Shown here piece by piece: positions 9,433 to 14,339 of a stretch of 64,000 bases of DNA. The position numbers and the translations under genes are program-made. Within the stretch, counting starts at the first letter, position 1, and every line of letters begins with the position of its first letter. Source of the stretch: an uncultured Pseudomonadota bacterium (GTDB taxonomy: Bacteria; Pseudomonadota; Gammaproteobacteria; Xanthomonadales; Wenzhouxiangellaceae); the NCBI GenBank assembly GCA_937138395.1, contig CAKZPB010000136.1, positions 1 to 64,000 on the forward strand. Reading direction: 5' to 3'. Below the pieces are notes generated by a model. The model saw only the letters and a list, made by a program, of their open reading frames with translations. It was not told where the DNA came from and did no database searches.

Positions 9433-12069
9433 TTGAAACTGAGAACCGTCACCTGGCTGATCGTCACGGCGTCTGCCGTTGCGCTGCTGGGCGGGCTGTT
9501 CATCGGCTATACCTCATGGGCCGACATTCAGCGGGGTACAGTGCGCGCTGACGAAGTCGGGCAACTGCACAACGAGTACCAGCGAATTCGGCTGGCCCTG
9601 GAAGATGCGGTGCTGGTTGAGCGAACGCCGGATGCGATTACTCCGGTCCTTGCCAAACTGCGGTCATTGGTTGATCCTTCAAGATCCGGTTTCCATTTCA
9701 ATACCGATATTGAAGACCTGATGCAGTCATTGATCTCGGCGGTCGAGGGTATTCAGCAGGACCTGCAAAACAATCCTGCGGCAACCATGCAAACCTCACT
9801 CGAACTGCTCGTTGACGAACGTGTCATTCGTCGCTTGGACGCAGAACTGCAGTCCAATCTTCTCGCCAGTGAGCAGGCAGCGATGCAAACCTTCCAGGAC
9901 AACTTTCGACAGGATTTGAGCAGGCTGGTCCTCGCGGTGATCGCGCTTGGGCTGCTGATGCTGATCAACGCGGTGGTGATATTCAAACGAACCCGCGGTC
10001 CGTTGGACACCCTGATGAGCGGTATCCATCAGATTGGCAAAACAGACAGCCCGAGCCCGGAGCTCATCGAGCTGAGCACGCGCGATGAATTCGGCCTATT
10101 GGCGCAGGCGATCAATTCGATGAATGGTCGATTGTTCGAACAACGTAACGAACTGCTCGAATCTCAAACCCGCTTTGATGAGCTGGCAGAAACCATTGAC
10201 GACCTGTTCTGGATTTTTGATGTTGAAAACAATCAGGCCCTGTACCTGAGCCCGGCCTTTGAACAACTGTATGGATTCAATCCCGACCCGGCCGATCTCA
10301 ATCCAGCGTACTGGGAGGCGCATATACCGGAAAAAGATATTCCAGCCTATCGGGATTACATCCAGGGCTGGAGCAAGGGCAATAGCGAGGGCAAGTATCG
10401 ATTTACGCGACCGGATGGTGAAACCATCTGGGTGCAGGATAAAGCCTATGGTGTACATGACGCCGACGGCACATTGGTCCGAATGGTGGGTATTGCACGA
10501 AACATCACTGCCCAGGTCGAAGCCATCGAGGCGCTTGAACAACGCGATCGCCAGCAGGCCATTGTGTATGAGCTGGCTCATGAAATCAGCAATTCGCGAG
10601 AGGATCTGGTCGCTATTTGCGAACGCCTTGTTCATCGTTTACCCGAATTGCTGGATAAACATAGCGATGGTGCCGCTCGAATCACACTAATGAATGACCG
10701 GTTCCAGACTGACAACTGGGAACACGTTGAACAATCCATCGAATTCCCGATTGTGATTCAGGGTGCCGAAGAAGGTGTCGTTGAACTGGGGCTTCAGGAA
10801 ATGGATACAGAGCACGACACTGCGTTCTTTTCAAGCGAAGTCGAATCACTTGAGCTCGTTGCGACTCAATTGACCACCCTGCTGCACAACCGCCGAATCG
10901 AGTCCAGGCTATGGCAGGACGAAAAACTCAAAGCAGTAGGCGAACTGACCGGTGGCGTTGCGCATGATTTCAACAATCTCCTGACCGTGATACTGGGTAA
11001 TGCTGAAATGATTCGGGATGACATGGGAGAGCAGGACCCGAATCTTGATCTGATCGAGATGATCCTCCAAGCCTCTTCACATGCAGCCGATTTGACGGCC
11101 CGCTTGCTGGCCTTTGCGCGTCGCCAGCCGCTCAATCCCGAGACCGTCGAACTGAACGCATTGATCGAGGAAATGGCGCCAATCATACGGCGAACGCTGG
11201 GTGAAACCATCGACGTCAACATCAAACTCGAACCCAATCTCTGGGCCAGCCGGATCGATCGAACGCAGCTGAGCGCCGCCTTATTGAATCTGTGCATCAA
11301 CGGTCGCGATGCCATGACCGATGGCGGGTCCTTGTTTATCGAAACAGTCAATCAGACGGTTTCCGAAGAGGAAGCCGATGAGTTCCTGGATCTCGCATCC
11401 GGCGACTACGCAGTAATTTCCGTAACCGACGATGGCGAGGGTATCCCTGACGATGTTCTGCAGCATGTGTTCGAGCCCTTCTACACCACCAAACCGAAAG
11501 CGGCTGGAACGGGACTGGGGCTGTCGATGGTCTACGGGTTTACCAAGCAGTCCGGCGGCAATGTCACGATTTATTCCGAGCCGGAAAAGGGCACAACCCT
11601 GCGGCTGTATCTTCCGCGGACCGAGCAAAGCGGAGACGTGCAAACGGCTGGCGACCCCGGCGAATTCATTGCCGAAGGCATGAGATGCCTGCTGGTCGAG
11701 GATGATGCGCTGGTCCGCTCTTACACCGAACGACTGCTCAAACGGATGGGCTTCGAAGTAATCAGCGCGAAAGATGCCGACCAGGCACTTGAAATTTATT
11801 CTCGCGAATCGGAGTTCGATCTGTTGTTGACCGACGTGGTCATGCCCGGTTCCATGGACGGTATTGCACTCGGCGATTGCGTGCGCCAACAAAATAAACG
11901 TATACTGATACTGTATATGTCAGGCTACACGCGTGACCGGTTCTCCAAGAAAAAAGAGCTGGAACCGGATGCCATCTTGTTGAACAAGCCGTTTCGGCGT
12001 GGCGAGCTTGTAAGTGCCTTGCAGCAAGTCTGGAGCAACCAAAGACCCACCTTATCTGCAGACCGATAG
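9433..12069 (+). CDS. PAS-containing hybrid sensor histidine kinase with C-terminal receiver domain
   Basis: TTG start; two TM segments; PAS (FDELAETIDDLFWIFDVENNQALYLSPAFEQLYGF); H-box GGVAHDFNNLLTVILGN; ATPase DDGEGIPDDVLQHVFEPFYTTKPKAAGTGLGLSMVYGF; REC LLVEDDALVRSYTERLL...LLLTDVVMPG. Confidence 0.95.
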   Translation: MKLRTVTWLIVTASAVALLGGLFIGYTSWADIQRGTVRADEVGQLHNEYQRIRLALEDAVLVERTPDAITPVLAKLRSLVDPSRSGFHFNTDIEDLMQSLISAVEGIQQDLQNNPAATMQTSLELLVDERVIRRLDAELQSNLLASEQAAMQTFQDNFRQDLSRLVLAVIALGLLMLINAVVIFKRTRGPLDTLMSGIHQIGKTDSPSPELIELSTRDEFGLLAQAINSMNGRLFEQRNELLESQTRFDELAETIDDLFWIFDVENNQALYLSPAFEQLYGFNPDPADLNPAYWEAHIPEKDIPAYRDYIQGWSKGNSEGKYRFTRPDGETIWVQDKAYGVHDADGTLVRMVGIARNITAQVEAIEALEQRDRQQAIVYELAHEISNSREDLVAICERLVHRLPELLDKHSDGAARITLMNDRFQTDNWEHVEQSIEFPIVIQGAEEGVVELGLQEMDTEHDTAFFSSEVESLELVATQLTTLLHNRRIESRLWQDEKLKAVGELTGGVAHDFNNLLTVILGNAEMIRDDMGEQDPNLDLIEMILQASSHAADLTARLLAFARRQPLNPETVELNALIEEMAPIIRRTLGETIDVNIKLEPNLWASRIDRTQLSAALLNLCINGRDAMTDGGSLFIETVNQTVSEEEADEFLDLASGDYAVISVTDDGEGIPDDVLQHVFEPFYTTKPKAAGTGLGLSMVYGFTKQSGGNVTIYSEPEKGTTLRLYLPRTEQSGDVQTAGDPGEFIAEGMRCLLVEDDALVRSYTERLLKRMGFEVISAKDADQALEIYSRESEFDLLLTDVVMPGSMDGIALGDCVRQQNKRILILYMSGYTRDRFSKKKELEPDAILLNKPFRRGELVSALQQVWSNQRPTLSADR

Positions 12070-12094
12070 CAGCAATCAATTCTGGAGGGGCGGA

Positions 12095-13312
12095 ATGAGT
12101 GATGAACTGAATGCCCTGATTATCGACGACGAAGAGCTGGTGGGCTTGACCATTCGCGGGATGTTGCGACGTGCCGACATCAAGGCCGAATGGACGCCCG
12201 ACCCGGATTACTTCCTCGAATTGCTCAACGAACACAATCCATCGATCGTGTTCGTTGACTTGAGCATGCCGGGCACCGACGGCGTTTCGCTGCTGATCAA
12301 GATCAGTGAAGTGGCACCTGATATCCCGATTGCACTGATCAGCGGCAAGGGACGTCGCATTCTCGAAGCTGCGCGGCAGTCAGCGACCGAACACGGACTG
12401 TGGGTCAAGGCTGTTCTGGAAAAACCATTTCATGCCGAACAGGTCGTTGCAGCCGTGATCAATTGCACTGAACACGGCTGCTGTAATGAAAATGCCGTTA
12501 AACAGCGCCGCGCGCACGATCAGGGACCGAGCTGGCTGCTGTCGATGGAGCAGGTCCACAATGCAATCGAAACCGAACTGATTGTCCCATTCTTTCAACC
12601 CAAGATCGACTGTGAAACCAACCAGTTGGTCGGCATTGAAGTGCTGGCCCGGTGGCCGGCAGAAGATGGACGATTCATTTTCCCGAATGAATTCATCCGC
12701 GTCGTCGAGGAAGCCGGTCTGATCACCGAAATGACGCTGTCGCTGGCGCGCCAGACGTTTGATTGGATGACAACCACCGGCTTTGAACACCTGATCGTCT
12801 CGTTGAACCTGTCTGCACACTCACTGGATGATGAAGATTTTCCCAGGCAGCTGCAGTACCTGGTCGAGGAATATGAGCTCGATACTGAACAAATCATGCT
12901 TGAGCTGACCGAAACCAGTGCGCAGAACCTGTCCGTCAGCACCCTGGATTCATTGACCAGACTGAGCCTGCGGGGTTTCCAGCTATCGATGGACGATTTC
13001 GGCACCGGGTACTCGTCAGTAGCGGCCTTGACCCGCATGCCATTCAACGAGTTGAAAGTGGATCAGGAGTTCGTTGCCAAAATGATTGAATCCGAACGGG
13101 CTCGCGCCGTGGTGGATATGGTGGTGGCGCTGGGGAAGCGGCTGCAAATGAAAGTGACCGCTGAAGGCGTGGAAGATCAGGAAACGCTGGAGGCGCTGCA
13201 TCAAATTGGCTGTGACCTTGTGCAGGGGTACCATCTCGGCCGTCCGATCAGTGGAAACGATTTTGTCGAACAGTGGGGTAACGCAGAAAAAAACGTCAAT
13301 ACAACAGCCTGA
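12095..13312 (+). CDS. response regulator with C-terminal EAL (c-di-GMP phosphodiesterase) domain
   Basis: MSDELNALIIDDEELVGLTIRGML (REC) followed by EVLARWP, ELTET, DDFGTGYSSVAALTRMPFNELKVDQEF, TAEGVEDQ (EAL motifs). RBS GGAGGGG before ATG 12095. Confidence 0.93.
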   Translation: MSDELNALIIDDEELVGLTIRGMLRRADIKAEWTPDPDYFLELLNEHNPSIVFVDLSMPGTDGVSLLIKISEVAPDIPIALISGKGRRILEAARQSATEHGLWVKAVLEKPFHAEQVVAAVINCTEHGCCNENAVKQRRAHDQGPSWLLSMEQVHNAIETELIVPFFQPKIDCETNQLVGIEVLARWPAEDGRFIFPNEFIRVVEEAGLITEMTLSLARQTFDWMTTTGFEHLIVSLNLSAHSLDDEDFPRQLQYLVEEYELDTEQIMLELTETSAQNLSVSTLDSLTRLSLRGFQLSMDDFGTGYSSVAALTRMPFNELKVDQEFVAKMIESERARAVVDMVVALGKRLQMKVTAEGVEDQETLEALHQIGCDLVQGYHLGRPISGNDFVEQWGNAEKNVNTTA

Positions 13313-13516
13313 AGACCTTGGTTGACGCTGCATTTTTTTTGCTGCTCGGATCGCCACCCACATCGTGTGGCCGCGCAACACCGACTAAAAACAGATTTTT
13401 ATCAAGCATTTGAACTACCTGCGAAATTTTTCTAACCAGTTAGTTCATAAAACTGAAATAAATACCTAATTTATTGATATTTAATCATTTTTATCAAGAT
13501 TTTTGCCCCTGAACGC

Positions 13517-13545
13517 TTGACAATACACTTCGTTGGGCGTACAAC
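13517..13545 (+). promoter_or_regulatory. predicted sigma70 promoter
   Basis: TTGACA (13517-13522), 17-bp spacer, TACAAC (13540-13545); strongly A/T-rich sequence upstream. Confidence 0.65.
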
Positions 13546-13551
13546 TATAAC

Positions 13552-13729
13552 TAACGCGGAAGCCTCACAAGGGTGAAGCGGCGCTAGAAAGCTCGAACCA
13601 ATGAGATCTGGCGGCAAGTTTGAACACTGTCTCAGTTTTCGGATTTGCTGATTTATCAGGTGACCAGCGCTAGTGCTTCAATCTCAAATTATCCGCGGAC
13701 AAGGCCCGGCTCCAGAAGCCCGGGCTTTT
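13552..13729 (+). ncRNA. candidate structured small RNA, family unknown
   Basis: Promoter immediately upstream, no convincing ORF; CGCGGA (13555-13560) pairs with TCCGCG (13692-13697); GGCGCT (13580-13585) with AGCGCT (13666-13671); local hairpins; ends in GC-rich hairpin plus TTTT. Confidence 0.6.
13703..13729 (+). terminator. intrinsic terminator of candidate sRNA
   Basis: GCCCGG-loop-CCGGGC followed by TTTT. Confidence 0.75.
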
Positions 13730-13766
13730 GTTATTGGGGATTTCAAACACAGCCAGCATTGAGCGT

Positions 13767-14255
13767 TCACTCGGCCGGAGTCGGGCGAACGGTTACTTCG
13801 ACAAACAACTCGGCATTCTCCGGCGTAGCCGTTTCAATATCCTGACCGACAACCGACACCGTCCCTGTTTGCCCCGGCGGCAGGCCCAGCATGGTGTCAG
13901 CCAGGAACTGCCATGTACCGTCAATTTCTTCTTCTATGGCCAGGTCCAGCCAGATAGCACCATCCATGGCCTTTTCTGAAGCATGTGCAGGCTGAATATT
14001 CACGCTCATGGCCCAGGCAGTCTGACCGCTGCGGTTTTCAATGCGTGCATCGCTGCCGGCCTGAACCTGAAGCGAGGGCTCGCCTTGCAGTTCACCATCC
14101 ATCCATACGCGCGTTTCGACCAGATATTCCTGAAGGCCGTCATCAGCCAATAATTGAGCTGAACAGCTCAACATCACAACGAGCAAGAAAGGCCACAAGA
14201 GAGGCCAAGAAAAAAACCCGGAACAGGATACTGTTTGACGTCGGTTCAGCTTCAT
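13767..14255 (-). CDS. hypothetical exported protein
   Basis: MKLNRRQTVSCSGFFSWPLLWPFLLVVMLSCSAQLLADDG signal peptide; no family recognised. Confidence 0.6.
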   Translation of the reverse strand: MKLNRRQTVSCSGFFSWPLLWPFLLVVMLSCSAQLLADDGLQEYLVETRVWMDGELQGEPSLQVQAGSDARIENRSGQTAWAMSVNIQPAHASEKAMDGAIWLDLAIEEEIDGTWQFLADTMLGLPPGQTGTVSVVGQDIETATPENAELFVEVTVRPTPAE

Positions 14256-14339
14256 ATCATTCTCAACATATCGAGCCTGTCTGGATGGTAGGCCTGGTCG
14301 GCGATCAGAGCCCGCCATCCAGCTGGATTGAACGTATCA

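Follow-up and report, generated by a model that had tools for sequence, protein, structure and literature searches.

A putative free-standing structured RNA gene with a conserved three-way junction in the Wenzhouxiangellaceae

Introduction

Trans-acting sRNAs of the Hfq/ProQ type, which are encoded in intergenic regions and end at intrinsic terminators, are a known kind of bacterial RNA. Here we describe a locus, found in a 64,000-nucleotide stretch of DNA (the window) from an uncultured bacterium of the family Wenzhouxiangellaceae, that resembles these sRNAs in having its own sigma-70-like promoter, an intrinsic terminator and a short, invariant, single-stranded AU-rich segment, but whose RNA is larger and more structured than most of them and has a short U tail. 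It is also unrelated to any of the sRNAs in Rfam. With 6S RNA it shares a free-standing gene, a length of ~180 nt and a layout of closing stem and long rod, whereas it differs in its side hairpin (H1) and invariant joining strand, 6S having a large central bubble. Candidate structured RNAs obtained by comparative genomics (for example, PMC2864571) are comparable in that they, too, are defined by conserved structure and covariation; the new RNA is set apart by its detection in one bacterial family only and by its lack of a fixed neighbor.

Promoter, Extent, and Terminator

Positions 13517-13733 (+) of the window almost certainly represent a free-standing ncRNA gene with a promoter, a transcript of ~180 nt and an intrinsic terminator. 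The first-pass annotation, made from the sequence of the window alone, had proposed a promoter of the form TTGACA-17-TACAAC, and these elements were confirmed, with the -35 hexamer TTGACA at 13517-13522 (+) and the -10 hexamer TACAAC at 13540-13545 (+), separated by a 17-nt spacer and with a conserved GGCG just before the latter. TTGAC is present in all nine homologues (TTGACA in eight) and in each of them lies 38-40 nt upstream of the second base of the closing stem, P1. At the -10 position most copies have GGCGTA followed by an AA-rich hexamer end, the weakest being that of G004 (GGCGCAATCT). Directly upstream of the -35 hexamer is a 40-nt AT-rich block (13477-13516, +; 70% AT vs. 44% in the 10-kb flanks), which is 60-80% AT in all nine copies (flanks 32-44% AT) and may function in the manner of an UP element. 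Transcription would be expected to start near 13552-13554.

The structured RNA, including its terminator, was matched by our covariance model R1 at 13553-13734 (+) with 189.9 bits. The GC-rich terminator hairpin, also proposed at the outset, lies at 13698-13733 (+), where the DNA ends in TTTTGTTA and the RNA tail is UUUUGUUA; its helix (helix 7) is 98% paired and three of its pairs have changed on both sides. A generic promoter/terminator scanner called neither a promoter nor a terminator on the plus strand, the former because TACAAC is without the final T that the scanner requires and the latter because the T run lies partly within the terminator stem. The evidence for the predicted promoter and terminator is their conservation, not scanner output. 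Across the nine homologues conservation spans promoter to terminator, and the flanks are unalignable. The earlier observation of ~175-180 nt without a convincing ORF extends to the homologues, as no open frame is common to all nine: we found no shared start codon with a frame of at least 12 codons and no frame with a conserved start that runs through the RNA. Its own promoter and terminator, the lack of an ORF and conservation as a unit are the genomic characteristics of a trans-acting sRNA.

Consensus Structure and Covariation

Folded as a single sequence, the RNA has a free energy of -69.7 kcal/mol, compared to a mean of -53.8 kcal/mol for dinucleotide shuffles (z = -3.9), and was more stable than all 200 of them. 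The consensus structure was produced from an alignment of the nine homologues (A3) with RNAalifold, and its 52 pairs were kept at 96% (96.3% of 465 cells paired). Compensatory changes, which the first-pass annotation had suggested seeking in relatives, proved abundant, with 18 pairs changed on both sides; the shuffle mean was 6.9, none of 500 shuffles reached 18, and slid controls gave at most five, a comparison that favors the structure somewhat since it was derived from the same sequences, the excess still being large. The predicted fold, which is well supported by these alignments, is a three-way junction in which the closing stem P1, the hairpin H1 and a long rod (P2-P4) are joined by the strand J2/1.

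P1, H1, and P2 are paired in all nine sequences. P1 corresponds to the closing stem CGCGGA/TCCGCG of the initial reading and pairs CGCGGA at 13555-13560 (+) with UCCGCG (DNA TCCGCG) at 13692-13697 (+), with a change from GC to AU in two copies. H1, likewise recognized from the start, is the hairpin GCCUCAC-AAGG-GUGAAGC (DNA GCCTCACAAGGGTGAAGC) at 13562-13579 (+), in which 17 of 18 positions are invariant in the nine copies, the sole variation being a loop A to G in G022. P2 is formed by GGCGCUAG at 13580-13587 (+) and CUAGUGCU at 13670-13677 (+), with 100% of cells paired and three pairs changed on both sides; the internal stem had previously been drawn as GGCGCT/AGCGCT, and the actual stem is GGCGCTAG with CTAGTGCT at these positions. 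Two minor hairpins that had been suggested, TGAGA/TCTCA and CTGA-TTTA-TCAG, fall outside the conserved fold in the nine-homologue alignment. Above P2 the rod (13591-13668, +) comprises P3 and the apical P4 (13612-13650) and varies in length, with a short form in G001, G005, and G022. Seven of the nine P4 pairs have changed on both sides. In P3 (alignment columns 44-48/112-116), five copies have UCUCC/GGAGA and G013 has GAUCC/GGAUC, and the copies of the window, G003, and G004 have a G.A/A.G tandem in place of the two outer pairs. Other covarying columns include 33/125 (UA to CG in three copies), 34/124 (AU to GC), and 31/127 (GC to AU).

J2/1 (AAUCUCAAAUUAU; 13680-13692, +) is a 13-nt AU-rich strand that is invariant in all nine copies and unpaired in the consensus apart from the U at its end, which closes P1. 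There is hardly any variation in H1 or J2/1, and these two therefore would carry sequence rather than pairing information. The minimum-energy single-sequence folds of G003, G004, and G022 depart from the consensus inside P1. A local hairpin, GCUAGA/UCUGGC, was also considered and rejected; 95% of its cells are paired, but its covariation does not exceed that of shuffles (101 of 500 score as high), and the long-range P2 is clearly supported. It is feasible that the RNA may switch between this local pairing and P2.

Comparison with Known RNA Families

A scan with the 4227 families of Rfam found no match at the gathering threshold anywhere in the window, and the 401 bases around the element gave chance-level matches only at E <= 10. 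The scan, which the first-pass annotation had proposed, thus agrees with its failure to recognize the RNA as 6S, tmRNA, SRP, RNase P, or a known riboswitch. The RNA is a new family of a known kind, absent from Rfam 15 and found in one bacterial family. It adds to the families in that release, with covariation that is unusually clear for only nine sequences.

Specific candidates were also examined. The 6S model (RF00013) has no match at the element, and the genome of the window (G000) has its own, single 6S gene on another contig (G000:C34:6299-6487, 81.8 bits). A CsrB/RsmZ-type sponge needs multiple GGA motifs in hairpin loops and the window copy has none there, its GGA motifs, read by eye, being at 13558-13560 (P1), 13641-13643 (P4 arm), and 13697-13699 (the P1/terminator junction). 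H1 has what we take to be a superficial resemblance to a tmRNA pseudoknot segment. Its local alignment to Escherichia coli tmRNA is at shuffle level (20% of shuffles reach the score), and tmRNA (RF00023) was rejected, there being no Rfam match, no ARAGORN call in the window and no tRNA-like part. In G000, which is rated 99.45% complete, no tmRNA was identified above the Rfam cut-off, the best RF00023 matches being tRNAs; the reason may be a gap in the assembly, a permuted tmRNA or true absence.

Distribution, Genomic Sites, and History

A DNA search of 40 relatives identified seven further copies, and a pattern search of GTDB species genomes returned five records, titled Wenzhouxiangella, Wenzhouxiangellaceae, Lysobacterales, or Gammaproteobacteria. 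With model R1 we identified nine carriers among 43 genomes of the same family, the named matches being Wenzhouxiangella or Wenzhouxiangellaceae, with one copy per genome at E <= 0.01. A more permissive search of 20 non-carriers in the family found nothing convincing (weak matches, E 0.04-0.65). Among 299 genomes of the order, the RNA had no match beyond these carriers other than one in G196 that was rejected as a homologue as it covers the terminator only, and there was none in 368 other genomes of the class. These searches were of sampled genomes and mostly used strict filters, and distant forms may exist elsewhere. Short patterns in three viral contigs, considered as a sign of viral origin, were due to chance (model scores of at most 13.6 bits over 18 nt).

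The nine copies occupy seven unrelated sites with no common neighbor; G001 and G005 share one site, G003 and G004 another, and each of the remaining five copies has a site to itself. The G022 copy is flanked by tdh (a zinc alcohol dehydrogenase-type gene) and a gene for a Fis-type regulator, with a sir2-like gene fragment next to it. The tdh-regulator region of G022 (G022:C1 near 1566300-1566900, locus L035) is shortened relative to that of its relatives and the following gene is missing; G013, G018, and G054 have longer intervals with the genes kept and carry their RNA elsewhere.

In trees of SecDF and SecF the carriers fall in two clades. The first SecDF clade consists of five carriers and the non-carrier G002 (83% complete), and the second of four carriers and the non-carriers G010 (99% complete) and G056 (75% complete). 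That the RNA is confined to two clades and missing from close relatives, G010 for instance, argues against an essential role. In the RNA tree, G022, a member of the second clade, groups with G001 and G005 (support 100/98), and a single clade of the four second-clade copies was rejected (p-AU 0.004, on a short alignment of 181 columns). This conflict between the RNA and SecDF trees suggests transfer between lineages. Transfer and relocation within the family would best explain the history of the gene, ancient duplicates with subsequent loss being a less simple alternative, and the gene, which is not tied to any neighboring gene, appears to have passed from lineage to lineage and from site to site in the family. 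It offers a compact example of a gene of sRNA size that seems to relocate and to cross lineages with no mobile element detectable, and such mobility bears on the origin and spread of bacterial sRNAs.

Proposed Function and Alternatives

The RNA is most likely a trans-acting sRNA that would contact a target or partner through its invariant strand, H1 or both. It would be made at a high rate from the sigma-70 promoter with its UP-like element, end at the intrinsic terminator and act in trans, with P1 and the variable-length rod holding two nearly invariant surfaces, J2/1 and H1, in place. Target RNAs would most likely base-pair at J2/1, whether or not an Hfq-type chaperone assists, because a 13-nt AU-rich strand that is invariant and set in a conserved scaffold is most economically read as the place where another RNA makes contact; H1 may be a partner-binding or accessory hairpin. 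Among the nine copies these two blocks are invariant or nearly so, against a rod of varying sequence and length, and they are immediate targets for mutation. That regulation is of the pairing type seems to us evenly poised. With one mismatch allowed, other J2/1-like sites are scattered in G000 and G001 only and none is common to the nine genomes, and the short U tail (UUUUGUUA) is weak for an Hfq sRNA and counts against it.

The near invariance of H1 could equally mean that the RNA binds protein and that J2/1 is structural. A 6S- or CsrB-like RNA of this type would bind a protein at the P1-H1-J2/1 junction and titrate it through abundance, the main rival of the pairing model and one to which we give limited credence: two nearly invariant blocks meet at one junction, the closing stem, the long rod and the strong promoter are reminiscent of the overall 6S layout, and J2/1 has no conserved complementary site that we could find, whereas an Rfam search up to E <= 10 showed no likeness to the 6S or CsrB families, a 6S gene is present elsewhere in the genome and the GGA motifs of the window copy are outside hairpin loops. 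It is rather doubtful that we are dealing with a new class of structured ncRNA that is limited to a single bacterial family, travels between its lineages as an independent gene with no carrier detected and has an invariant three-way-junction core that would function unlike 6S, Csr, or pairing sRNAs.

The seven sites in nine genomes, the patchy presence in two clades, the conflict between trees and the state of the G022 site, where only a fragment of a sir2-like gene is left and the next gene is gone while relatives without the RNA there keep genes in the interval, would also be expected of an RNA that serves the maintenance or movement of a mobile or selfish element, or of a phage or plasmid remnant, and not host regulation. 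We consider this unlikely, since no transposase or integrase was identified among the flanking genes scanned, phage records gave no match and plasmid records only a 27-base piece in the terminator region, and neither end repeats nor target duplications were seen at the inexactly mapped boundaries. That the locus is no RNA gene at all, and instead a conserved DNA element or chance fold, is hardly credible given the compensatory changes and the conservation of the -35 spacing and terminator in one orientation.

Neighboring Genes and Elements

The window copy lies between a response-regulator/EAL gene (REC-EAL, ending at 13312) and a small opposite-strand gene adjoining secF. That the next gene is on the opposite strand had led the first-pass annotation to dismiss an mRNA leader, and the lack of a neighbor common to the seven sites leads us to reject a cis-regulatory leader or riboswitch as well. 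The adjacency to the REC-EAL gene that it had emphasized is true of the window but incidental, the other eight copies being beside unrelated genes. Neighbors at the various sites include MoaE and HlyIII; an amidohydrolase and an ATP-grasp protein; an S15-type hydrolase and DUF808; tdh and the Fis-type regulator; SDR and AbgT; and a methyltransferase.

Several features of these regions are of separate note. Window positions 9433-13312 comprise the gene for a HAMP/PAS hybrid histidine kinase that includes a receiver and, after it, the REC-EAL gene. Neither was found when the 7-10 kb around secF were checked in 15 relatives; the carriers among these relatives have their RNA elsewhere. The small gene between the RNA and secF (13767-14318, -) has no Pfam match and is kept beside secF in all 15 (31-49% identity), making it an uncharacterized secDF companion. 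At the G005 locus (L032) there are a SAM riboswitch (1336-1451) and a molybdenum cofactor riboswitch (12554-12701), the latter ~2.5 kb from the RNA copy. In G001 a 43-base tandem array of 2.6 copies (L029:9759-9867) lies directly downstream of the RNA terminator, and its unit repeats a portion of the terminator hairpin.
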